A DNA stretch of 64,000 nt, from positions 3,224,001 to 3,288,000 of the forward strand of contig CP036201.1 in NCBI GenBank assembly GCA_004299845.1, given 5' to 3'. Positions 17,479-37,613 of this stretch are shown here, one piece after another (the stretch's first letter is position 1; every line of letters begins with the position of its first letter). Below the pieces are notes generated by a model, which worked only from the letters and a program-made list of their open reading frames with translations, had not been told where the DNA came from and made no database searches. The DNA comes from Verrucomicrobia bacterium S94 (GTDB lineage Bacteria; Verrucomicrobiota; Kiritimatiellia; Kiritimatiellales; Pontiellaceae). A program made the translations under genes and the position numbers.

Positions 17479-17862
17479 ATGAAAGAGCGTAACCTTCAAC
17501 CCGACTGCTGGAAATATGAACTGTCCGGAGGTTTTCAGGCCTGGGCGGGAAAAACCGATCGCGACAACGATCTGCTGAGTCTGAAAACCGCTCGCCCGGA
17601 AGAACTCTGGTTTCATGTTCACGGCGTACCCGGAAGCCACGTCATTCTCCGCCACCCCGCCGGAGAAAAACCCGGCAATGCCCTTATCCGCCAGGCCGCC
17701 GCCATCGCAGCCTGGCACTCCAAAGCCCGCAACGCCGGCAATGTACCCGTAAAATACACCGAAGCCAAACATGTCGGAAAACCCCGCGGCGCCAGACCCG
17801 GCAGCGTCACCGTCAAGCGCGAAAAAACCATCAAAGTCCGCCCCGCCCTTCCCCGCGAATAA
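17479..17862 (+). CDS. Stand-alone NFACT-R (DUF814) RNA-binding domain protein
   Basis: The 127-residue protein is only the NFACT-R domain found at the end of RqcH/NEMF/FbpA proteins. Signature: 'ELWFHVHGVPGSHVILRH' (about 45-62), a helix 'ALIRQAAAIAAWHSKARNAGNVPVKYTEAKHV', then 'KPRGARPGSVTV.REKTIKV'. In RqcH this domain helps contact tRNA and the 50S subunit in ribosome quality control. The N-terminal NFACT-N, HhH and coiled-coil parts are absent, as in other free-standing bacterial copies. The ATG at 17479 is taken because 'MKERNLQPDC' opens the conserved part; the frame is open from 17413. The last codons lie inside a large inverted repeat. Confidence 0.85.
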   Translation: MKERNLQPDCWKYELSGGFQAWAGKTDRDNDLLSLKTARPEELWFHVHGVPGSHVILRHPAGEKPGNALIRQAAAIAAWHSKARNAGNVPVKYTEAKHVGKPRGARPGSVTVKREKTIKVRPALPRE

Positions 17863-17919
17863 AGTATATCATCCGTCTTCCACGATCGTGGGAATTGGAT
17901 GATATACTTTATTCGCGGG
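17852..17919. repeat. 23-bp perfect inverted repeat around the NFACT-R stop codon
   Basis: The 23 bases at 17852-17874 are perfectly inverted at 17897-17919. The 22-base loop contains CCACGATCGTGG, itself a palindrome. No T-run follows, so it is not a standard terminator for either side, though it may still end transcription from both. Confidence 0.8.
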
Positions 17920-22418: not shown

Positions 22419-23795
22419 ATGACAAATAAATTAAAACAGGGAACCCTGCTGTCCGTTTTTATACTGTCTGCCTATGCCGCATTCGGAGGCACCCAGGTCG
22501 ACCCTCAGATGGCACGGGATCTGTTGCATAGTCAGAACAAACAATTCGAGCAGCAGATTGTGAAGGTGGCCGACAACGTATTTACAGCCGTTGGATTCCA
22601 CGGCGCCAACACTTCAATGATTGTCGGCAACGACGGGGTGATTATCATCGACACCCTCAAAGGACCGGCCAGCGCGGCGAAAGCCCTGAAAGCGTTCCGG
22701 GCATACAGCGATAAACCGGTCAAGGCCATTATCTATACCCATAGTCATGGTGACCATATCGGCGGGGCAGCCGCTTTTATGAAAAACGGCACGCCGGATA
22801 TCTATGCCACCGCAGGTTTCGGTTCCGCCGAGGGCGGCATCAACAAAGATGTGAATCCGGTCAAGGGTAAACGGAATATCCGCCAGTTTGGGCGCAACTT
22901 GCCGCCGAAAGAACAGACCAACCGCGGTGTGGCCCCGGCCGGCACGGAAGATCACGACGGCGGCGAAGGTTTTGTGCCCCCAACCGTTCGGATTTCCGAG
23001 GATGGCTATAAAACGGTGATCGCAGGCGTTGAACTCGAGTTCTACCTCAGCCCGGGCGAGACCGACGATGCGCTGTTTGTCTGGATGCCGAACGAGAAAG
23101 TACTTTTTGCGGGTGATAATTTTTACCACTCCTTCCCCAACCTGTATGCCATTCGCGGCACCGTTTACCGGGATGTGCTGGACTGGTCCGACAGCGTTGC
23201 AAAAATGGCGACATTTAAACCGCAGCGTTTGGTTCCGGGGCACACCATGCCGATGCTTGATCCGGTTGCCGCAACTGCTGCATTGAAAAATTACAGTGAA
23301 GCCATCCGCAGTGTGTATGACCAGACGGTAGAAGGGATCAATGCGGGCAAAAGTCCTGATCAAATTGCGCATGAAGTAAAACTGCCGGCGCATTTGAAAG
23401 ATCAATCCTATCTCATCGAGTTCTACGGTACCGTGCCGCATGCCGTTCGTGCCATTTATGCCGGCCTGCTCGGTTGGTTTGATGGCAATCCGACCACGCT
23501 CAATCCGCTCGAACCTCGTATTAAAGCCCGAAAAACGGCCGATCTTGCCGGTGGTACGCAATCGCTTACCAAACAGATGGAAGCCGCGCTGACGGCGGGC
23601 GATTACCAATGGGCACTCGAACTTTCCGACCATTTAAAATGGCTGGAGGATGGCGACCGGCAACTTGCCCGGAAAACAAAAATAACGGCACTGCGTGCGC
23701 TGGCGGAGAGGGAATACAACGCCCCAAACCGGAACTATTACCTGAGCTACGCCAATGAACTCGAATCCGGCGAACTGAGCGGAATCTGGTTTTAA
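22419..23795 (+). CDS. Alkylsulfatase-type metallo-beta-lactamase fold hydrolase, exported
   Basis: The 458-residue protein has an N-terminal signal peptide (residues about 5-25, 'LLSVFILSAYAAFGG'). The metal-binding motif is 'THSHGDHIGG' (107-116); further ligands lie in 'SPGETDDALFVWMPNEKVLFAGDNF' and 'LVPGHTMP'. The helical domain after residue 290 ('YDQTVEGINAGKSPDQIAHEVKLP') is the dimerisation domain of SdsA1-type alkylsulfatases. The SCP2-like C-terminal domain of SdsA1 (total near 650) is absent. It should hydrolyse sulfate esters of alkyl chains in the periplasm. AGGAAAGGAG precedes the ATG at 22419. It probably shares the MarR-controlled transcript. Confidence 0.85.
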   Translation: MTNKLKQGTLLSVFILSAYAAFGGTQVDPQMARDLLHSQNKQFEQQIVKVADNVFTAVGFHGANTSMIVGNDGVIIIDTLKGPASAAKALKAFRAYSDKPVKAIIYTHSHGDHIGGAAAFMKNGTPDIYATAGFGSAEGGINKDVNPVKGKRNIRQFGRNLPPKEQTNRGVAPAGTEDHDGGEGFVPPTVRISEDGYKTVIAGVELEFYLSPGETDDALFVWMPNEKVLFAGDNFYHSFPNLYAIRGTVYRDVLDWSDSVAKMATFKPQRLVPGHTMPMLDPVAATAALKNYSEAIRSVYDQTVEGINAGKSPDQIAHEVKLPAHLKDQSYLIEFYGTVPHAVRAIYAGLLGWFDGNPTTLNPLEPRIKARKTADLAGGTQSLTKQMEAALTAGDYQWALELSDHLKWLEDGDRQLARKTKITALRALAEREYNAPNRNYYLSYANELESGELSGIWF

Positions 23796-23820
23796 ACCCA
23801 AACCGTGTTCACCACACCTC

Positions 23821-23846
23821 CGCCCGGTGAGGGCACCGGGCCTACA
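23821..23846 (-). repeat. REP-like short palindromic repeat, copy 2
   Basis: On the minus strand this reads TGTAGGCCCGGTGCCCTCAC followed by CGGGCG, matching the unit at 5073-5097 apart from a few bases in the stem. Both copies sit just after gene ends. Confidence 0.5.
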
Positions 23847-23931
23847 ACCGAACCCTTCGTGCCGGCTTCACCATTCCGGCAATCCCCCAAACCAAACCCG
23901 CCAACGCTGTAGGGGCGCCTGCACACACGAC

Positions 23932-23976
23932 CCCAACAAACTTGAATCCGGCGAACAGAGCAAAGTATGGTTTTAA
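23932..23976 (+). pseudogene. Tail remnant of a second alkylsulfatase gene
   Basis: 'NKLESGEQSKVWF' plus stop, encoded here in the intergenic region, copies the 'NELESGELSGIWF' end of the gene just upstream. It looks like the last piece of a lost tandem duplicate. Confidence 0.5.
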
Positions 23977-28645: not shown

Positions 28646-28801
28646 TAATACCATTTACTAAAACATTCCGGTCTTAATGACAGCGTTATTCCGCGCAGAG
28701 ACGCTGAGAGCGCGAAGCCGTTTATGTCTGAATTTCTCTGCGGCCTCAGCGCCTTTGCGCGGGATCAGATTTATGCCGGATAGTTTTAACGTTTGGTATA
28801 A
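28646..28801. mobile_element. MITE-like foldback repeat, copy 1
   Basis: This 156-bp intergenic unit begins TAATACCA and ends TGGTATAA. The outer 26 bases of each side form an imperfect inverted repeat (TAAAAC and CCGG are shared). The interior also folds: the CCGCGCAGAGACGCTGAGAG arm at about 28687 mirrors the CTCAGCGCCTTTGCGCGGG arm at about 28745. No coding capacity. Copy 2 is at 37458-37613. Confidence 0.7.
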
Positions 28802-28828
28802 ACCACTGGTTCAAAGTTGAAAAAATAA

Positions 28829-28857
28829 AAACCGCCCTGCAGTGTACAGGACGGTTT
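28829..28857 (-). terminator. Terminator after the rubredoxin gene
   Basis: AAACCGCCCTG pairs with CAGGACGGTTT across a 7-base loop. On the minus strand it is followed by TTTTATTTTT, which places it at the end of the rrf2-flavodiiron-rubredoxin operon. Confidence 0.85.
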
Positions 28858-28878
28858 AGCAAACCGAATTCGGACGGT

Positions 28879-29043
28879 TTAGTCTTCGATGACGGAAAAG
28901 TCGTCTTTACCGACGCCGCATTCCGGGCATTCCCAATCGTCAGGAATATCTTCAAATGCAGTTCCCGGTGCGATTCCGCTGTCCGGGTCACCAACCTCCG
29001 GATCGTAGATCCAACCGCACACATCACAGATATATTTCTTCAT
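28879..29043 (-). CDS. Rubredoxin
   Basis: The 54-residue protein is a classical rubredoxin. It carries the two Cys pairs '[10 protein letters not shown]' (Cys6, Cys9) and '[11 protein letters not shown]' (Cys39, Cys42) that bind one iron, and the conserved '[21 protein letters not shown]' between them. It passes single electrons, most likely to the flavodiiron protein encoded upstream. It is the last gene of the operon and ends in a clear terminator. The ATG at 29043 opens directly into 'MKKYICDVC'. Confidence 0.95.
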
Positions 29044-29144
29044 GCTTTATACTCCTTGGTTCAAAATCGGCCTGAATATCCCCATCTTTTCCGTAGGCCG
29101 CAAGGCGATTCTCTCTGGAAATTCAACCCTGCGGCCAATGCTGC

Positions 29145-29255
29145 CTAATCCTCTTTCTTCTCGAAGAGATCTTTAGGAACATGGCAGAGCGGACAGGTTT
29201 CCGGCGGCTCTTCGCCTTCGTGAACGTGCCCGCAGACGGTACATACCCATTTCAT
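29145..29255 (-). CDS. 36-residue rubredoxin-like zinc/iron ribbon protein
   Basis: This tiny frame encodes 'MKWVCTVCGHVHEGEEPPET' followed by 'CPLCHVPKDLF'. Its CxxC...CxxC arrangement matches the C-terminal rubredoxin-like domain of rubrerythrin. It starts 11 bases after the flavodiiron stop, within the same operon, and is followed by the full rubredoxin. It may be a second electron carrier for the flavodiiron protein. The small size makes the coding call less certain, but the two Cys pairs and position support it. Confidence 0.8.
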   Translation of the reverse strand: MKWVCTVCGHVHEGEEPPETCPLCHVPKDLFEKKED

Positions 29256-29266
29256 TCATGAACTCC

Positions 29267-30457
29267 TTAATCTTTATACTGCTCGGCATATTTGCCTAAT
29301 TCGCGCCCCGCTTCACGACAAATTTCAAGGAGTTCGGGGGTTGGAACATACTGCGAACGGATCGGTTCGCGCATGAGTTCGATTTTCATATCCTTCATGC
29401 GGTCTTCCACTTCGGAAGCCCCGCCGCGTTTCGACCAGCCGTAGGAACCGAAAGCAAAGCCTTTTTTGTTGGTCGGGCGCAAGCCGCCGAGATAGCAGAG
29501 CAGACCGGCCATATTGGGCATCAGTGTATTGTTGAGTGTAGAAGAACCGATGGCGACAGCGGCAGCATCGAGCACCTCGGTGGCAATGGTGGTGGAGTGT
29601 GTGGCATCCACACTGTAAAAACGCGCCTCCACTTCATACTCCTGCACTCCTTCCAGAATGGCCTCCGCCATTTTGCGGGTAGCTCCCCACATGGTGGCAA
29701 ACATCACAATCACTTTCGGCTCCGGCTTACAGACGACCCATTTCCGATAAGACTCCAGTACTTCCTTAATATGGCTGCGCCAGATCACGCCGTGACTCGG
29801 GGCTATCATTTCAATCTCCAGCTCGGCGGCTTTATCCAGTGTCTGGGCAATCGGGCGGCCGTAAAGCATTACGATATTGGCATAATAGGCTTTCGCTTCC
29901 TGCAGAATCACATCCAGCGGTTCTTCATCGTCGAAACGGAAGGCCGTCGCAAAATGCTGCCCGAAAGCATCCATGGAAAAGAGCAGTTTTTCTTCGGACA
30001 CATACGTAAACATCGATTCCGGCCAGTGCACCATCGGCGTATTGATGAAGCTCAGTGAACGTTTTCCCAGCGGAATTGTATCGCCGTCATTAACCACCTG
30101 CCATTTCCATTCCGCAGTATCATAATGTTTCTCCAGCGCATCTTTACATTTTGCATTGCAGACCATCACGGCATTCGGACAGGCCTTCATCAGGTCCGGA
30201 AGACTTCCGGAATGATCGGGTTCGGCATGATTGCAGACAATATATTTGATGGTATCGAGACCGACCCGGTCGGCGATGCGTTTAACCTGGTAATCGGCAT
30301 ACTGCCCCTTCACGCCGTCGATCACCGCATTGTATTCATCTTCAATCAGATAAGCGTTATAGGTGGAACCGCTTTCGGTTTTATAGCCGTGGAAATCACG
30401 GACCGTCCAATCGATATAGCCCACCCAGTTGATGCCTTCGCGTAGTTCGGTATTCAT
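29267..30457 (-). CDS. Flavodiiron protein (NO/O2 reductase)
   Basis: The 396-residue protein has a metallo-beta-lactamase-like diiron domain and a C-terminal flavodoxin domain. All diiron ligands are present: His77, Glu79, Asp81 and His82 in 'NHAEPDHSG', His144 in 'MVHWPESM', Asp163 in 'SMDAFGQH' and His222 in 'PSHGVIWR'. The FMN loop 'FATMWGATRKMAEAI' begins near residue 255. Such enzymes reduce oxygen to water or nitric oxide to nitrous oxide in anaerobes, using rubredoxin as donor. Two rubredoxin-type genes follow and an Rrf2 regulator precedes it by 4 bases, so this is a detoxification operon. Confidence 0.95.
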   Translation of the reverse strand: MNTELREGINWVGYIDWTVRDFHGYKTESGSTYNAYLIEDEYNAVIDGVKGQYADYQVKRIADRVGLDTIKYIVCNHAEPDHSGSLPDLMKACPNAVMVCNAKCKDALEKHYDTAEWKWQVVNDGDTIPLGKRSLSFINTPMVHWPESMFTYVSEEKLLFSMDAFGQHFATAFRFDDEEPLDVILQEAKAYYANIVMLYGRPIAQTLDKAAELEIEMIAPSHGVIWRSHIKEVLESYRKWVVCKPEPKVIVMFATMWGATRKMAEAILEGVQEYEVEARFYSVDATHSTTIATEVLDAAAVAIGSSTLNNTLMPNMAGLLCYLGGLRPTNKKGFAFGSYGWSKRGGASEVEDRMKDMKIELMREPIRSQYVPTPELLEICREAGRELGKYAEQYKD

Positions 30458-30461
30458 TCAG

Positions 30462-30884
30462 TCAGTTTCCCCAGTTAGATTCCTGCGCCAGCTGCGCAAC
30501 CGTTGTTTTCTCAAAATAATCATGCACCTGCCGCGCCAGATCCGGCAGAAGCGCTCCGAGCACGCAGTCATTCCGCGGACAGCGCGCCTTGCCGAAAAGG
30601 CACGGTTTACACAGCATCGTGCCCTCCATCAGTTCATAGATCTCCAACAGGGTGATTTCCGCCGGATCCCGGGCCAGTGAAACGCCGCCGGCCGGACCGC
30701 GGCTCGATGCCACATATCCCGCTTTGGTCAGTTTCTGGTGCACTTTGGCCAAATGATGCCGCGACGCTTCGAACACATCGGCTATTTTTGCGGTCGTCGA
30801 TACGTGATCCGGCTCAAGCGCCAGATGAACCAGAGAATGCATCGCCAGCGCCGTTGCATCCGAAATTTTTATAATATCCGCCAT
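30462..30884 (-). CDS. Rrf2 family regulator with Cys cluster
   Basis: The 140-residue protein has the Rrf2 winged helix: 'TALAMHSLVHLAL..DHVSTTAKIADVFEASRHHLAKVHQKLTKAGYVASSRGPAGGVSLARDP' is the family core. Cys92, Cys95, Cys102 and Cys107 could hold an iron-sulfur cluster, as in NsrR and IscR. It is the first gene of the operon and overlaps nothing; its stop lies 4 bases before the flavodiiron ATG. A 7-5-7 palindrome about 60 bases upstream is the likely operator, so the protein should sense NO, oxygen or redox state and regulate itself together with the operon. Confidence 0.93.
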   Translation of the reverse strand: MADIIKISDATALAMHSLVHLALEPDHVSTTAKIADVFEASRHHLAKVHQKLTKAGYVASSRGPAGGVSLARDPAEITLLEIYELMEGTMLCKPCLFGKARCPRNDCVLGALLPDLARQVHDYFEKTTVAQLAQESNWGN

Positions 30885-30941
30885 ACCTTTTCCTGAATAA
30901 GCAATGGCGTACCTCTTTACCGAAACCCCGGCAAATGATCC

Positions 30942-30960
30942 ATTTAGACTTCATCTAAAT
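30942..30960. promoter_or_regulatory. Candidate Rrf2 operator
   Basis: ATTTAGACTTCATCTAAAT is a perfect 7-5-7 inverted repeat about 58 bases ahead of the rrf2 ATG. On the minus strand TTGATA borders it, consistent with a -35 beside the operator. Confidence 0.6.
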
Positions 30961-31073
30961 ATCAACAACTGCCCGCCCCGGAACCGGATTCCTTAAAAAA
31001 ACTGCTCCCCAAGCCTGCGGACAGGCCGTATAAAAACGCGACCGTTAACCTTCCATCTGAATCCGGATTATCA

Positions 31074-32834
31074 ATGAACACACCTCTCAGACCGCTTGAA
31101 TATGCCTACCGCAGCAGCCGTCCGCTGAAAACCATGCTCTACCTGCTGAACCGCCGGTGGTATCACTACCTCGCAATTGCCTGTCTTTTCGGCTTCAAAT
31201 ATCTTCCCGTCTGCCTGCTGCCGGTTTTCATTACCGGAATCATCAACGCCTTCACCGAAGAAAACGGACGCATCGACCGCCTTCCGCTCTGGTTCGGTCT
31301 GATGGCCCTTTCCGTTTTTCAGAATATTTTTTCCCATACCGCCTATATCTACATGCTCAGCCATGCCGTTCGTGAAATGGAAAACCGGCTTCGCAGCGCA
31401 CTGGTTGAACGGCTCCAGCAGCTCTCCATTCCCTTTCACAGCCGCACCGAATCCGGTCGCCTGCAGGCCAAAGTCCTGCGTGATGCAGAACAGATTCAGA
31501 CACTCTGCATGATGCTTGGCGAAGTCGGCATGTCCATCATCGTCGGGTTTCTTTTCGCCATCATCCTGACCGCCCTGCGCGCCCCGCAGCTGCTGCTCTT
31601 CTACCTGCTCATGGTACCGCTCTCCGTCGGCATCACCGCACTCTTCCGTCGACACATCAACCGGCAGAACAACGCATACCGATCTGAACTTGAACAGATG
31701 TCCTCCGAAACTGTGGAAATGCTAAACATGATCCCTATCGCCCGCGCCCACGGACTGGAAGATACCGCCGTCAGCCGCTCCCGTTCCACTTTCAGCGCTG
31801 TCAGCCGTGAAGGACTCAAGCTCGATTTCATCAACGCGTTTTTCGGTTCCTCATCCTGGGCAACCTTCCACCTCTCGCTCATCGTTGCCCTTGCCCTGCT
31901 CAGCTGGCTGTGCATGAAGGGCCGGATATCCGCCGGAGAAATCATTCTGTTTCAAAGCCTGTTTGCCATGCTGGTTGCCGCAGTCAGTCAATTGCTCGGC
32001 ATGATTCCCCAGATTGCCAAGGGCATGGAATCCATCCGCTCCATCGGCGAAGTGCTGGAATGTCCCGACCTCGAACAGGATACCGGACGGGAAACGCTCG
32101 AAACCCTCAAAGGACGTGTCGATTTCGAGCAGGTTCATTTTACCTATGAAAACAGCGATCACCACAGCGTATCCGATTTCACCCTGCCCGTAGCACCCGG
32201 AGAATGCATTGCACTGGTCGGCTCTTCCGGTGCCGGAAAATCCACGCTCATCCAGCTGCTCATCGGTTTTCTCCGGCCCTCTTCCGGACGAATTCTCTTC
32301 GACGGCATCGATATGGCCGAACTCGACATGCGCACCGTCCGCCGCTTCATCTCCGTGGTTCCACAGGAAACCGTCCTCTTTTCCGGATCCATCCGCGAAA
32401 ACATTACCTACGGCCTCAACCACGTCTCCGAGTCTAAACTCGGCGAAGTGCTCGCAGCCGCCAATCTGACGGCATTCATTGAAGAACTGCCCGAAGGCCT
32501 GGAAACCCGGATCGGCGAAGACGGTGCCCGCCTCTCCGGCGGCCAACGCCAGCGTATCGCCATTGCCCGCGCGCTGATCCGCAATCCCAGAATCCTCATT
32601 CTCGACGAAGCCACCTCCGCCCTCGATGTCGTTTCAGAAAAACTGGTGCAGGAAGCCATCGACCGCGCGGTACAGAACCGCACCACCTTTATTGTGGCCC
32701 ACCGCCTCTCCACCATCCGTCAGGCCGACCGCATCGTTGTCATGCAAGACGGCCGCATAGCCGAAACCGGCACCTATCAGGAACTGCACGACCTCCGCGG
32801 CATTTTCTACGAAATGCAGCAGCTCCAGCACTGA
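31074..32834 (+). CDS. ABC exporter half-transporter (permease-ATPase fusion)
   Basis: The 586-residue protein has six membrane helices in residues 1-320 and a nucleotide-binding domain in 330-575. Motifs: Walker A 'GSSGAGKST' (about 384-392), Q-loop 'VVPQETVLFSGSIRENI', signature 'LSGGQRQR' and Walker B 'ILILDEATSALD', then the H-loop 'VAHRLSTI'. This is the MsbA/LmrA-like arrangement, working as a homodimer. The substrate (lipid, peptide or drug) cannot be read from sequence. It is monocistronic, divergent from the rrf2 operon. Confidence 0.93.
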   Translation: MNTPLRPLEYAYRSSRPLKTMLYLLNRRWYHYLAIACLFGFKYLPVCLLPVFITGIINAFTEENGRIDRLPLWFGLMALSVFQNIFSHTAYIYMLSHAVREMENRLRSALVERLQQLSIPFHSRTESGRLQAKVLRDAEQIQTLCMMLGEVGMSIIVGFLFAIILTALRAPQLLLFYLLMVPLSVGITALFRRHINRQNNAYRSELEQMSSETVEMLNMIPIARAHGLEDTAVSRSRSTFSAVSREGLKLDFINAFFGSSSWATFHLSLIVALALLSWLCMKGRISAGEIILFQSLFAMLVAAVSQLLGMIPQIAKGMESIRSIGEVLECPDLEQDTGRETLETLKGRVDFEQVHFTYENSDHHSVSDFTLPVAPGECIALVGSSGAGKSTLIQLLIGFLRPSSGRILFDGIDMAELDMRTVRRFISVVPQETVLFSGSIRENITYGLNHVSESKLGEVLAAANLTAFIEELPEGLETRIGEDGARLSGGQRQRIAIARALIRNPRILILDEATSALDVVSEKLVQEAIDRAVQNRTTFIVAHRLSTIRQADRIVVMQDGRIAETGTYQELHDLRGIFYEMQQLQH

Positions 32835-32837
32835 ACC

Positions 32838-32863
32838 CAAAAAGCCCGGCAATAAACCGGGCT
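32838..32863 (-). terminator. Terminator of the aminotransferase gene
   Basis: AGCCCGG and CCGGGCT (32843-32863) form a hairpin followed on the minus strand by TTTTTGGG. It may also slow the convergent ABC transporter transcript. Confidence 0.75.
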
Positions 32864-32885
32864 CTCCAGAGATTGGAACTGTGAT

Positions 32886-34082
32886 TTACGCCTTCAGCGC
32901 TTCCGCAATGGCGTCACAGACATAGTCGATGTTTTTACGGGTCAGACCGGCGACGTTGATGCGCCCGCCTTTCACGATATAAACCGACTTATTCACTTTC
33001 AGCCACTCGACGATTTCATCGGAGAGTCCACTGAAAGAAAACATGCCGCGCTGTTCTTTAATGTAGGAGAAATCCTGCTCAACACCGCGTGCCGCAAGAC
33101 CATCGACCAGGGCTGCGCGCATCTCTTTGATCCGATTGCGCATGCCGGCCACCTCGCCGATCCACTGGTTGTAAAGCGCTTCATCCTCCAGCACCGTCAG
33201 CGCCGCCAAGCCACCGTGCGCCGACGGATTGGAATAGTTTACGCGAACCGTCAGCTTTGCGTGGCTGAGCGCAACCGCGGTCTCTTCGGCCGAGGGGGTG
33301 ACGATGGTGAATGCACCGGTCCGTTCATTGTACAGACCGAAGTTTTTCGAGAACGAACTCGCCACTACAAAATCAAGGCCGGCGGCAGCAAATTTTTCAA
33401 CGGCCGTGCGATCTTCCTCAATACTGTCCCCAAAGCCCTGATAGGCAAAATCAAGGAACGGCATCCAGCCTTTGGTTTTGGCGATTTCGACCACCGCATC
33501 CCACTGCTCCCCGACCAGATCGGCTCCTGTCGGATTATGGCAGCAGACGTGCATCAGCACAATATCACCGGCCGGAACCTTTTCCAGCGTTCCGATCAAT
33601 GCATCGTATTTCACGCCTTTGGTTTCCGGATTGTAGTACGGATAGTCCGCAATCTCGTAACCGGCGGCACTGAAAATCCCTTTGTGATTGGCCCAGGTGG
33701 GCGTGCTTACCCAGACTTTTGCATCCGGCCGGAATTTTTTCAGCAGATCGGCACCGACACGCAGCGCACCGGTTCCGCCCGGCGTATGCAGTGTGGCCGC
33801 CCGGTTGGAGCGGATCACTTCGCTGTCCACACCGAACAGCAGTTTCTGAACAGCCGCGCCATAGGCCGGATTTCCGGGAATGGGGAGATAGCTTTTTGTG
33901 GTTTCGGTCTCGGCCAGCTTTTTCTCGGCGGTCTTGATGCTGTTCAGGATCGGGGTCGTACCTTCATCATCTTTGAATACGCCGACGCCGAGATTGACCT
34001 TGTTTGGATTTTCATCCTTTTTGAACGCCTCGGTCAGCCCGAGAATTGCATCTGCCGGAGCAGCTTCGATTTCTTTCCACAT
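32886..34082 (-). CDS. Aromatic/aspartate aminotransferase (AspC/TyrB type)
   Basis: The 398-residue PLP enzyme belongs to the class I aminotransferases of the AspC/TyrB group. 'NLGVGVFKDDEGTTPILNSI' opens the fold, 'HNPTGADLVGEQW' holds the cofactor-ring Asn, and the Schiff-base lysine is in 'ASSFSKNFGLYNERTG'. It moves amino groups between aspartate, or aromatic amino acids, and 2-oxoglutarate; the preference is not clear. The ATG at 34082 is chosen because GGAGA lies 6 bases upstream. It is preceded by the NDK gene, but a terminator lies between them. Confidence 0.92.
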   Translation of the reverse strand: MWKEIEAAPADAILGLTEAFKKDENPNKVNLGVGVFKDDEGTTPILNSIKTAEKKLAETETTKSYLPIPGNPAYGAAVQKLLFGVDSEVIRSNRAATLHTPGGTGALRVGADLLKKFRPDAKVWVSTPTWANHKGIFSAAGYEIADYPYYNPETKGVKYDALIGTLEKVPAGDIVLMHVCCHNPTGADLVGEQWDAVVEIAKTKGWMPFLDFAYQGFGDSIEEDRTAVEKFAAAGLDFVVASSFSKNFGLYNERTGAFTIVTPSAEETAVALSHAKLTVRVNYSNPSAHGGLAALTVLEDEALYNQWIGEVAGMRNRIKEMRAALVDGLAARGVEQDFSYIKEQRGMFSFSGLSDEIVEWLKVNKSVYIVKGGRINVAGLTRKNIDYVCDAIAEALKA

Positions 34083-34112
34083 GTTTATCTCTCCGTAATT
34101 TGAATGATGGAT

Positions 34113-34145
34113 AATAAAAAAGAGCCGCGGCAGCTCCACGACTCT
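34113..34145 (-). terminator. Terminator of the NDK gene
   Basis: On the minus strand AGAGTCGTGG, an AGCTG loop and CCGCGGCTCT form a 10-bp stem with G-U pairs, followed by TTTTTTATT. It lies 13 bases after the NDK stop. Confidence 0.8.
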
Positions 34146-34157
34146 CCCGTTCACGCA

Positions 34158-35318
34158 TCAGGAATAATACTCATTGTACCAACGCGTAATCGTGTCTTCG
34201 TCCACTTTCAGAATACCGATTTCGCGCTGTGCATTTTCCGGTGAATCCGAAGCATGCGCGGCGTTAACCATAATATCGGTTCCGTATTCTTTACGTACCG
34301 AACCCGGTTCCGCTTTGCTCGGATCTGTCGGACCAAGAATGCCGCGAATTTTTTCAATGGCGTTTTCACCGGCATAAACCAGCACCATACTGCGTGCAAC
34401 GCCCTCAGCCATGGTGGAATCCGCATCCACATCCGGTGCCCAGAGACCGGTCATGTACTGCATGATGCTGTAGAACTGGTCATCACCATATGCCGGACCT
34501 AATGTGCCTTCCAGGGCTTCCCGTACTTCGGCCGGCATTTCAAAACCGAATTCCTTTTTCAGCACCTCGCAGGCCTTATCCACGGCGCGACCGCCCAGTT
34601 TTTCACGAAGCACATTCTGGACAGGACCATAAAATTCCTGCGCCTGCGCCAGACTCATTTTCTGTACTTTCGTGCCGACCAGCCGAAGACCGGAGCGGGA
34701 GAAAATATCAATGATATTGCCCGGCCGGGAGCTCGGGAATGTGAAGTTATCGGGCTTGATAATCACCAGTGCCTGTTCCGCATCCTTTTCATCAGCCATA
34801 CGGATGGTGTTATCCAGAATACCGCCGTCCTGTTCAGAAAACTCCGCCCAGAGCCCGATGGTCTTTTTCGCGATTTCAACCGTCGGTGCAGCAAGTACCG
34901 CCGGCTCAAAATAAGTCACGTTGCCTTCATTGTCCTTGATATAATCCCCGAACGTACCGCGGATCGTATCTGCGCTTTCGATGGAATCTTCAAATCCTCC
35001 GATGGCATCGCGCAGTTTCTGCACGGCATTTTCACCTTCGAACAACAGCATCAGAACGCGGTGTACCCGCCCGTCTTCCATCGGAGCCATTTCGCGTTCG
35101 ATATATTCAGAAAGTACCTCGCGGATTTCCGGCCAGACTTCATCTTCGCTGCGGATCAGATCCGCATACCGTTTAACCAGTTCACGGCTCGGGCCGATCA
35201 TACGGGCCGCAACCAGCTCCAGCCCGGTAGTACTCATCAACCGACCCAATACCCCGCCGGTACGCGATTTACGCAACGTGTACGGGGTAATTAATACATA
35301 TCCAAGTTCCTTTGACAT
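34158..35318 (-). CDS. Tandem-domain nucleoside diphosphate kinase
   Basis: The 386-residue protein is two NDK folds in one chain; normal NDK has about 140 residues. The first domain (about 5-165) begins 'LGYVLITPYTLRKSRTGGVLGRLM', but lacks the catalytic histidine: the site reads 'FEPAVLAAPTVEIAKKTIG'. The second domain (about 185-380) has 'LVIIKPDNFTFPSSRPGNIID' and the full active-site loop 'NAAHASDSPENAQREI' with His355, and carries an insert around residues 235-285. It should transfer phosphate between nucleoside di- and triphosphates through the second domain; the first may be structural or regulatory. It ends in its own terminator. Confidence 0.85.
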   Translation of the reverse strand: MSKELGYVLITPYTLRKSRTGGVLGRLMSTTGLELVAARMIGPSRELVKRYADLIRSEDEVWPEIREVLSEYIEREMAPMEDGRVHRVLMLLFEGENAVQKLRDAIGGFEDSIESADTIRGTFGDYIKDNEGNVTYFEPAVLAAPTVEIAKKTIGLWAEFSEQDGGILDNTIRMADEKDAEQALVIIKPDNFTFPSSRPGNIIDIFSRSGLRLVGTKVQKMSLAQAQEFYGPVQNVLREKLGGRAVDKACEVLKKEFGFEMPAEVREALEGTLGPAYGDDQFYSIMQYMTGLWAPDVDADSTMAEGVARSMVLVYAGENAIEKIRGILGPTDPSKAEPGSVRKEYGTDIMVNAAHASDSPENAQREIGILKVDEDTITRWYNEYYS

Positions 35319-35391
35319 TTACATCCTCCTGAAGAATTGGTGCACTTCATACCGATCAACGTTTACAGGCTCAACCCCCAAATGAGACTTT

Positions 35392-36693
35392 ATGGATAAT
35401 AAACTCCAGCAAAAACCGCTTCCGGAAAAGGTTGTCCGGCGTCATGCAGAGCTTCTTGAAGAGCTTCTGCCGGACTTTTCAACCCTCGTTATCGACGAAG
35501 GCCGACCGGCCGATGCCCTGCTTCAGGGATTCCTCCGTTCGCGCCGTGAACTCGGCTCACGCGACCGCCGTTTTCTGGCCCAGGCCGTCTTTTCCTATTT
35601 CAGATGGTATGGCTGGAGCGTCAGAAAAATCGGACTCCCCCCCTCTGAAGCCTGCCTGCTGGGCAGTGCACTCGAATCCACAGCACTTTCGCAGAGTTTT
35701 CTCTATCTGGAAAAAAGGCTGCATCTGCCCTTTCCTCTGGAATGTATGGGCGATCTGAATGTGCAGCAGAAATGCAACCGCCTCAACGAACTGCTCGCCG
35801 ACCGTAAGAATTTCCAGCCGCTGGAACTTTCCGACCTGGTGCTGCCGGAATTCGGAAGTGTGGTCGATCCTGATAAAGAGGAAGCCTGTATCCACGCCTT
35901 CCAGCAGCGACCGCCCGCCTGGATCCGTACACGATCCGGCGCGGAAACCATTACTTCCGCTCTCACCGAAAAAGGTGTATCGAGTAAAACGCACAGCCGG
36001 GTTGAAGCCGCCGTATCCCTTGATCCCGGAATCAGCCTTCAGCATCTGCTGGGCGATCTGTCCGGAAGGTTCGTTGTGCAGGACCTGGCCTCACAATGCG
36101 TCGGTCTCGTTGCTGATCCGCAAAAAGGCGGCGACTGGTGGGACTGCTGCGCCGGGGCCGGCGGAAAATCACTGCATCTGGCCGACCTGATGGAAGAAGG
36201 AAAAGTCCTCTCCTCCGATATCCGTATTCCTGCTTTGAAAGAGCTGAAAAAGCGCGCACGAAAATACGGTATCAGAAGTATACGTACACAGCCGTTCAAT
36301 GCCGCGAATGATGAACCCTTTACCAAAACCTTCGACGGAGTGCTCGTTGATGCCCCCTGCTCCGGCTGGGGAACCTGGAACCGCAATCCGGATGCGCGCT
36401 GGCGCACTTCGCGCCGCGATGTCATCCAGTGTGCAAGCCGTCAGCTCAAAATCCTGAATAATGTGAAGTGGTGTGTAAAACCCGGCGGACTGCTGATTTA
36501 TGCCGTCTGCACCTTTACCCGGCCGGAAACCGAAGAAGTGGTCATGAACTTTCTCGACCAGCACCGCGATTTCAAACCGGAACCGTTTACCCATCCGCTC
36601 ACCGGAGAGGAAACCGAAGGACAACTGCAGATCTGGCCGTGGGAAGGTCCCGGAGACGGCATGTTTATTGCCCGCCTCAGAAGAGAGACTTAA
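35392..36693 (+). CDS. RsmB/NSUN-family cytosine-C5 RNA methyltransferase
   Basis: The 433-residue protein has an N-terminal helical RNA-binding part (about 1-160, NusB-like in RsmB) and an SAM-dependent methyltransferase domain. Motif I is 'WWDCCAGAGGKSLHLADLM'. Motif IV 'VLVDAPCSGWGTWNRNPDARWR' holds one Cys, and motif VI 'YAVCTFTRPETEEVV' the catalytic Cys. These are the two cysteines of m5C methyltransferases. The target is probably 16S rRNA, but RsmB versus RsmF cannot be settled from sequence. It diverges from NDK. Confidence 0.9.
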   Translation: MDNKLQQKPLPEKVVRRHAELLEELLPDFSTLVIDEGRPADALLQGFLRSRRELGSRDRRFLAQAVFSYFRWYGWSVRKIGLPPSEACLLGSALESTALSQSFLYLEKRLHLPFPLECMGDLNVQQKCNRLNELLADRKNFQPLELSDLVLPEFGSVVDPDKEEACIHAFQQRPPAWIRTRSGAETITSALTEKGVSSKTHSRVEAAVSLDPGISLQHLLGDLSGRFVVQDLASQCVGLVADPQKGGDWWDCCAGAGGKSLHLADLMEEGKVLSSDIRIPALKELKKRARKYGIRSIRTQPFNAANDEPFTKTFDGVLVDAPCSGWGTWNRNPDARWRTSRRDVIQCASRQLKILNNVKWCVKPGGLLIYAVCTFTRPETEEVVMNFLDQHRDFKPEPFTHPLTGEETEGQLQIWPWEGPGDGMFIARLRRET

Positions 36694-36747
36694 AAAACGC
36701 CGCGAGGCCGAAGTCATGATACTTCAGCCTCCGGCACTTTGTTCTTT

Positions 36748-37158
36748 TCAATCCTCTAAAACATCCAGCGATTCAATATCGGTGTTTTCAAAGGTCAGTT
36801 TTCCGAGGCGCAGTGCCACAGTTTCAGCACAGGGGCACGGCAGTGCCAGGGAATCTAGCACAAGACGTCCGGTGAACTCCTCATCCCAGCCACGCAGCCG
36901 CAGCCTCACTTTTTTATTCAGCACAATGCCGAACTTTTTTTCCACCCGCCGGAACGCCGCCTTTTTTTCGTTATTAAACTGGAACCAGCCCTCCTCACCG
37001 AGATCGCGCGGAAATTCGAGCAGATCGTCGGCAGCAAAGTTAAAATCCAACTGGTCTTTGGGGTTCTGTTCCATAAGCCCGACAAAATAACCAAAAAGAA
37101 GACCGTTTGAAAATCGGCTTTCATTTTTTTCCAGTGTCTGGAAAATCAAGCATCTCAT
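36748..37158 (-). CDS. Hypothetical protein
   Basis: I do not recognise this 136-residue protein. The C-terminal 108 residues (from the ATG at 37074, 'MEQNPKDQLDFNF') are soluble and mixed alpha/beta, with 'KKVRLRLRGWDEEFTGRLVLDSL' like a small beta barrel. The true start may be 37074; the first 28 residues at 37158 look less conserved in composition. It lies convergent with the methyltransferase, with no operon partner. Confidence 0.5.
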   Translation of the reverse strand: MRCLIFQTLEKNESRFSNGLLFGYFVGLMEQNPKDQLDFNFAADDLLEFPRDLGEEGWFQFNNEKKAAFRRVEKKFGIVLNKKVRLRLRGWDEEFTGRLVLDSLALPCPCAETVALRLGKLTFENTDIESLDVLED

Positions 37159-37253
37159 TCAGAAAGGTTTAGCCGGGTCAAAATGATCCAAAGCCGAACC
37201 TTTCAAAACATGCATTCACATTGCACAACCCGATATTTTAAAAGGATACTGAA

Positions 37254-37457
37254 ATGAAGAAACTGATTACTCTGTGCTGCCTTGCAGCGTTCGCAATCGC
37301 CCTTTCAGGCTGTGTAACCCGCAGCTACATTGACTCCCCGAAAAACCGCGGGGCCGCCGCCGATGCCAGCCAGAAATACGGCTCCAGCCCCGGTGAAAAA
37401 GTAAAAAGCAAAAAACGGGTCTGGATCTGGCAGAAAGAATTCCGCAATTCCAACTAA
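37254..37457 (+). CDS. Small lipoprotein
   Basis: The 67-residue protein is a lipoprotein: 'LITLCCLAAFAIALSGC' ends in lipobox LSGC with Cys20. The mature part is short, basic and unstructured-looking, ending 'RVWIWQKEFRNSN'. Such small lipoproteins are common entericidin-size proteins, but no family is recognised. AAAGGA precedes the ATG. A foldback repeat begins directly at the stop codon. Confidence 0.75.
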   Translation: MKKLITLCCLAAFAIALSGCVTRSYIDSPKNRGAAADASQKYGSSPGEKVKSKKRVWIWQKEFRNSN

Positions 37458-37613
37458 TTATACCCTTTACTAAAACATTCCGGTCTTAACGACAGCGTTA
37501 TTCCGCGCAGCGACGCAGAGCGCGCGGAGCCGTTTATGACTGAATTTCTCTGCGTCCTCAGCGCCTCTGCGCGGGATCAAATTTATACCGGATAGTTTTA
37601 ACGTTTGGTATTA
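37458..37613. mobile_element. MITE-like foldback repeat, copy 2
   Basis: Same length (156 bp) and mostly the same sequence as 28646-28801, from the TACTAAAACATTCCGG arm to the TTTAACGTTTGGTATTA end. Differences cluster in the inner arms. Insertion lies exactly at the lipoprotein stop codon, so the element may supply its 3' end. No gene within. Confidence 0.7.

Follow-up and report, generated by a model that had tools for sequence, protein, structure and literature searches.

A hairpin-bearing miniature transposable element with probable IS630-type ends and a core targeted by an IS110 element in Verrucomicrobia bacterium S94

Results

We analyzed a window of 64,000 nucleotides from the genome of Verrucomicrobia bacterium S94, a single contig (C1) of 4,107,983 bases in which the window occupies C1:3224001-3288000. 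An earlier note, made from the letters of the window alone, had described two same-length units as copies of a 156-bp foldback element resembling a miniature inverted-repeat transposable element (MITE). Both units are present, are 93% identical over 152 nt and fold far beyond shuffled sequences (z scores of -6.0 and -6.6). The 156-bp span is correct, because it comprises an element of 150 bp, bounded by TACC...GGTA, and two 3-bp target duplications; as the length of the element itself, the figure did not hold. Copy 1 (28649..28798, + strand), delimited like copy 2 by pairwise identity, blastn, the end pattern and the flanks, lies between two TAA triplets (28646..28648 and 28799..28801), which form its target duplication. 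It opens with the left terminal repeat TACCATTTACTAAAACATTCCGG (28649..28671, + strand; C1:3252649-3252671; no mismatches to the end pattern), continues with a core hairpin of CGCAGAG/CTCTGCG type, located by folding at 28686..28772 (arms at about 28686-28718 and 28734-28772), and closes with the right terminal repeat TACCAAACGTTAAAACTATCCGG, which follows the end pattern on the opposite strand (28776..28798, - strand; C1:3252776-3252798). The 23-bp ends are imperfect inverted repeats, as the note had proposed, with 16 of 23 positions common to left and right; they are kept across copies, and the pattern TACCANNNNNTAAAACNNTCCGG is present at both. Copy 2 (37461..37610, + strand) is flanked by TTA on either side (37458..37460 and 37611..37613), the left triplet standing directly 3' of the TAA stop of a short lipoprotein-like open reading frame (ORF), where the note had placed it. 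Its core hairpin, recognized from the sequence at 37498..37584, includes TCAGCGC-CT-CTGCG (37558-37571), a site of the type that the guides of a resident IS110 insertion sequence (IS; see below) would read, with no IS110 inserted. No ORF of 100 aa or more lies inside the 150-bp element, and a search of four loci against Rfam gave no match to it at E <=1, the single sub-cut-off match falling outside the element.

The two window units belong to a large family. With copy 1 as query, blastn returned at least 42 pieces in the genome, a lower bound since 40 of the 68 first-look candidates were scored, and copy 2 was among them at E = 1.5e-59. When split copies are counted once there are 40 loci, and five more were found through their ends, which brings the number of MITE loci in the genome to at least 45. 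The outcome that the note had set against its own proposal, a genome with these two copies only and no conserved inverted ends, was therefore not what we found. Identical TNA triplets flank 28 of the 35 two-ended copies, N being each of the four bases somewhere (L030 was left out as a duplicate of L041, and only copies whose two ends lie within 500 bp of each other entered the count), and they also flank 12 of 14 copies hand-chosen in relatives and in a second MITE family. The note had suggested looking for TA duplications; duplications exist, but they are of 3 bp (TNA) and not TA, because the middle base agrees on both sides, unlike in a TA parse. The same conclusion follows from a copy (L010, C1:2823772-2823921) that disrupts the D-loop of one of two adjacent tRNA-Lys(CTT) genes, the other being intact: removal of the element together with one TNA restores a 76-base tRNA-Lys, the same length as its intact neighbour, whereas the TA parse leaves a tRNA of 81 bases. 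The two units of the window are confirmed as members of a genuine, multi-copy MITE family, which has inverted ends and duplicates its target. In the second MITE family (L082-L087, at C1:2830950 of this genome and in the same-genus genome G027), a CACAGAG/CCTCTGTG core lies between TACCA ends, and the duplications are mostly TNA.

G027 also provides a view of the two window sites in a relative. It aligns with the window over 8.6 kb at 84% identity, from 28827 to 37453, that is, between both MITE sites, and it lacks the MITE at either one, with a short spacer at the first and different sequence past the lipoprotein stop at the second. The empty sites that the note had hoped for in sister strains are thus seen as absence of the element, the spacers being too diverged for an exact empty junction to be read. 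G027 carries MITE copies at other places.

No transposase with matching ends was found in the window, in agreement with the note: searches of the genome with PF01609 and with a piece of an IS630 transposase, the families covered, gave no such transposase except one degraded IS630 piece outside the window. This remnant (C1 955870-956031) contains stop codons, and its broken C-terminus adjoins a lone left end of the MITE at C1:956047. The left-end pattern occurs in 10 of 97 genomes including this one, all of the same genus, vs. two control matches. In one of them, G009, the left end adjoins a gene with an IS630-type C-terminus (DDE_3), a 115-aa piece of which scores 86.8 bits against NF033545, below the cut-off of 100; as a protein query, this piece found matches in 23 of 146 genomes. 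Three of the resulting elements, 1142-1171 bp in length (L286, L287, and L294), have TACC...GGTA ends, TNA duplications in every case and transposases above the IS630 cut-off of NF033545 (199, 198, and 156 vs. 100 bits), and the end of L286, TACCATTTACAGAAACATTTCGGTATAAA, is close to that of the MITE. A fourth element (L292) has the TACC/GGTA pair and an equal TNA, and since it was found with TNA equality required it is not independent proof. An IS with ends of this kind, which the note had asked after, exists in relatives, where full-length elements with such ends and TNA duplications encode IS630-family transposases; in S94 a dead remnant is all that was found. Nine stretches next to lone TACC ends were read in relatives; one led to an IS630 gene, and the others were mostly MITE-like or of other sequence. 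Since the IS630 remnant found here is dead, the MITE is probably immobile in this genome today unless another transposase acts on it. Elements of the DDE_Tnp_1 family (PF01609; 18 matches in two of three genomes) were rejected as partners on account of their other ends. One of four near-identical short DDE_Tnp_1 elements, with TAGGGC ends, lies at C1:3290179-3290583, about 2 kb beyond the end of the window.

Several MITE copies are interrupted by an insertion carrying the gene for an IS110-family recombinase (DEDD/Transposase_20; 170.7 vs. 140 bits for NF033542). Of 56 IS110 candidates in the genome, 40 were scored, and the 10 places so detected are all in MITE sequence and within the cores; at nine there is MITE on both sides, and at one (2998855) there is MITE on one side and the IS is truncated. 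Three inserts (L036, L038, and L048) are mini forms that consist of the non-coding left end alone, each in a MITE core, and L031 is a 46-bp IS110 remnant. The IS110 element targets the MITE core. Within its 296-nt left end, TCAGCGCC (in target sense) and TCGCAGAG (the complement of CTCTGCGA) flank one predicted hairpin, and a few pairs form between the two in the minimum-energy fold. Jointly, these two predicted target guides spell TCAGCGC-CT-CTGCGA, which is present in many MITE cores; the predicted target sequence is TCAGCGCCTCTGCGA, and the sites of L042 and L043 are imperfect. Predicted donor guides (ACAGTTG and CTACAAG) lie further 3' and match the ends of the IS exactly. The right target guide agrees at 5 or 6 of 6 positions at eight of the nine readable junctions (4 of 6 at L043). 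This layout suggests that a predicted bridge RNA directs insertion into the core, with guides that fit the individual sites unevenly.

The CTCTGCG core is a separate module with relatives of its own and its own IS110 passenger. When the MITE was searched for in 58 genomes, 14 including S94 gave a match, many of them to the core only (query about 38-118), and about a dozen of the core loci in relatives lack TACCA ends and consist of a whole or half hairpin built as TTCCTCGCAGAG-N-CGCAGAG-NN-CGCAGAG...and back. A scan for free core-type hairpins in 464 kb (400 kb of the genome plus the window) gave three long hairpins, none of them core-type, which is weak evidence because the two window cores were missed as well. 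Arms of the core type also stand beside genes: at L078 a pair of them frames a GxxExxY ORF, whose 3' end is overlapped by the right arm. From the S94 genome, five of six PF13366 matches were fetched and their arms compared with the core. Those of the L140 cassette, which carry CGCAGAG, matched the core above all 500 shuffles in four of four comparisons; for L078, two of the four comparisons stood above every shuffle, and in the remaining two the score was equalled or exceeded by 1 and 2 of the 500. The match of L138, built on the related word CGCTAAG/CGCAAAG, was moderate, and the arms of L137, L139, and L141 do not match the core.

Genes for GxxExxY proteins flanked by such arms are widespread. 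Of 97 genomes sampled from the class, 73 contain PF13366, and an inverted arm pair (score >=29) was found at 29 of 30 GxxExxY loci in the class vs. none of 221 displaced windows from the same loci. For S23 genes (PF05635, 23S_rRNA_IVP; L245-L274), arms scoring >=27 were found at 22 of 30 loci vs. 4 of 228 controls, both sets of 30 being the best-scoring loci and not a random sample. The GxxExxY arms are built from many words, among them CACAGAG, CACGAAA, CGCAAAG, CAGGAT, and ACGCGAAT, often three times per arm. In a hand-picked set of 20 PF13366 loci, which included the five from S94 and had no controls, 13 reached a score of 29 or more. A GTDB set, the best 80 of 577 confirmed loci and again not random, had arm scores of at least 27 at 56 of 77 loci (three were dropped for too little flank) vs. 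6 of 805 controls, one of which scored 55, above most real loci. These loci come from Chloroflexi, Acidobacteria, Bacteroidetes, Nostoc, Planctomycetes, several proteobacterial classes, KSB1, WOR-3, and a Methanothrix, among others, and arms were not seen at the Methanothrix locus. Among hand-picked arms, the near-repeats have a period of 8-10 bp in all 27 from GxxExxY loci and of 7 bp in 14 of 15 from S23 loci; the MITE core hairpin likewise has paired arms of several 8-10 bp near-repeats. In the GxxExxY protein itself, D67, E77, and K79 are kept in 20 of 20 aligned sequences, with the spacing of PD-(D/E)XK enzymes. PADLOC returned weak Cas4-like matches only (best E 0.001), and no relative of solved structure was found at E up to 0.1.

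Two other repeats of the window are unconnected with the above. At 17852-17919 there is a 34-nt inverted repeat whose arms, 88% complementary and without a gap, form a strong hairpin unrelated to the MITE, and at 23749-23976 there are two 47-nt direct repeats, 81% identical and 181 bp apart, ending TGGTTTTAA.

Discussion

We consider it probable that the MITE of S94 is a non-autonomous DNA transposon with IS630-type ends, a captured hairpin between them and an IS110 landing site in that hairpin. Its ends of 23-30 bp would come from an IS630-type lineage bounded by TACC...GGTA, inserting at TNA with a 3-bp duplication, and an IS630-type transposase would have moved the element in trans. Between these ends lies a roughly 80-bp CGCAGAG hairpin, which occurs without them in relatives and whose arms resemble those of a GxxExxY cassette of this genome. 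The core is in turn the landing site of the IS110 element, whose predicted bridge RNA would guide the insertion. A broader proposal, to which we give about an even chance of being right, is that small mobile cassettes are widespread, with GxxExxY (PDDEXK_3) genes and, as a separate group, S23 four-helix genes serving as their cargo or engine. The ends of these cassettes would be inverted arms of at least three short near-repeats (8-10 bp for GxxExxY and 7 bp for S23), with the word changing in concert across both arms; gene-less arm pairs such as the MITE core would be non-autonomous derivatives, and the nuclease may recognize or process its own arms.

Several points weigh against this account and, for each of its parts, lend something to an alternative. 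The relation between core and cassettes would have to be read from short words of biased composition, and mobility of the cassettes is suggested by their layout and spread, no empty site having been seen. It is therefore conceivable that the CGCAGAG core has nothing to do with the GxxExxY cassettes and that short purine-rich words mimic a likeness, the more so as three of the five S94 cassettes have arms that do not match and a fourth matches only moderately. We regard this as possible, although on balance doubtful, in view of the shuffle comparisons at L140 and L078 and of the same kind of arms on free hairpins in relatives. We infer instead that the core and the cassette arms may be of common origin; for a derivation of the core from a gene-less cassette there are the similar arms of L140 and L078, and no intermediate was found. 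With respect to the IS110 element, the left guide fits at 5 or more of 7 positions at four of eight readable junctions, L042, L043, L048, and L036 fitting at 1 of 7, and both guides are exact at one insertion only (L044). The element might then locate the core by means other than the predicted guides, such as the shape of the hairpin, in the manner of IS that use repetitive extragenic palindromes (REP), and the confinement of all detected insertions to cores would suit this. Such a mechanism seems to us rather unlikely, since the right guide fits at nearly every junction, the CT dinucleotide is retained and one insertion is exact for both guides.

The attribution of the ends to IS630 also meets difficulties. 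The TACC/GGTA pair with an equal TNA was seen at just 4 of 30 IS630-piece loci (L286, L287, L292, and L294), many of the others being truncated, broken or distant. Six of the loci contain an ORF of at least 300 aa, and two of these lack the pair: L293, from the same genus (307 aa with a stop), has one end only, and L306 (301 aa, distant) has none. The ends of L286 and L287 are partly like those of the MITE, while those of L292 and L294 share little past TACC, and an intact IS630 partner was not found in the S94 genome. Furthermore, classical IS630 elements duplicate TA, as described in excerpts of PMC2170065. One might suppose that the MITE was driven by a DDE element of the IS5/IS1031 type and that the IS630 likeness of its ends is convergence. 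The TNA duplication would fit, as IS1031-type elements make TNA duplications. This explanation is nevertheless improbable: the DDE_Tnp_1 (PF01609) elements found in G000 and G017 end differently, none occurs in G027, IS630-type elements combine TACC...GGTA ends with TNA duplications, and the MITE left end adjoins an IS630 C-terminus both in G009 and in S94. Least probable of all is that the unit is retained for a regulatory or structural role as RNA (a terminator, RNase III site or attenuator) and that its repetition is secondary. In favour of this, both copies fold strongly and some copies lie where genes end: of 24 perfect duplications, 8 supply the in-frame stop to an open frame that is 60 codons or longer, vs. 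3 in each of the two other frames. However, every TNA is a stop codon when read on one of the two strands, and the TNA duplications, the absence from both G027 sites, the insertion that breaks a tRNA gene and the lack of an Rfam match to the element in the four loci searched all speak against it. ORFs of at least 100 codons, read from stop to stop in six frames and given without a chance level, span 15 of 29 insertion sites.

If the preferred reading of a captured hairpin between IS630-type ends is correct, the MITE represents a well-anchored case of layered mobile elements, with IS630-type ends, a core related to a nuclease cassette, and an IS110 element that was detected nowhere but in this core. 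Its 3-bp TNA duplication departs from the TA rule for IS630/Tc1-mariner elements. Environmental genomes commonly contain CACAGAG/CGCAAAG-like repeats, for which a connection between the core and GxxExxY genes would offer an explanation, together with a direct test of the role of a little-studied nuclease. The arm-flanked nuclease cassette may be new. Searches of the open-licence literature found no work with GxxExxY, PF13366, PDDEXK_3 or TIGR04256 as its subject, judged by title, so that priority cannot be claimed on this basis; the repeat words entered as letters turned up unrelated subjects only, and IS630 together with TNA target site duplication turned up resistance-gene work only, both again by title.

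Parts of this arrangement have counterparts in known systems, which are compared here as excerpts of the cited papers describe them. IS621, an IS110-family element with a bridge RNA and REP targets (PMC11208160), shares with the resident IS110 the recombinase, a non-coding left end in which candidate guides for target and donor follow in the same order, a CT core and a repeated palindrome as target; the resident element differs in that it targets a MITE core and in that its guide fit is exact at one read insertion only. The intervening sequence of 23S rRNA with its S23 ORF is likewise a small gene between inverted repeats that has long been suspected of mobility, and mobility of S23 elements inside rRNA was proposed earlier (PMC4990558). 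In the loci described here, the GxxExxY and S23 arms are made of several short near-repeats. The Correia/NEMIS elements (PMC2229807), of about 107 and 155 bp, resemble the MITE in having terminal inverted repeats and target site duplications, a likeness of description; they belong to another host and, as far as seen, have other ends. IS630/ISY100 (PMC2170065) is comparable in that the full-length elements related to the MITE encode IS630 transposases (NF033545, DDE_3), whereas it makes a 2-bp TA duplication and the elements here have a 3-bp TNA and TACC...GGTA ends. RUP of Streptococcus pneumoniae, a MITE attributed to IS630-Spn1 (PMC2229807), is like the MITE in being short, intergenic, and multi-copy with IS630-type ends; its targets are reported to contain TA, whereas the S94 MITE duplicates TNA and carries a hairpin module that is found in relatives without the ends of the MITE.
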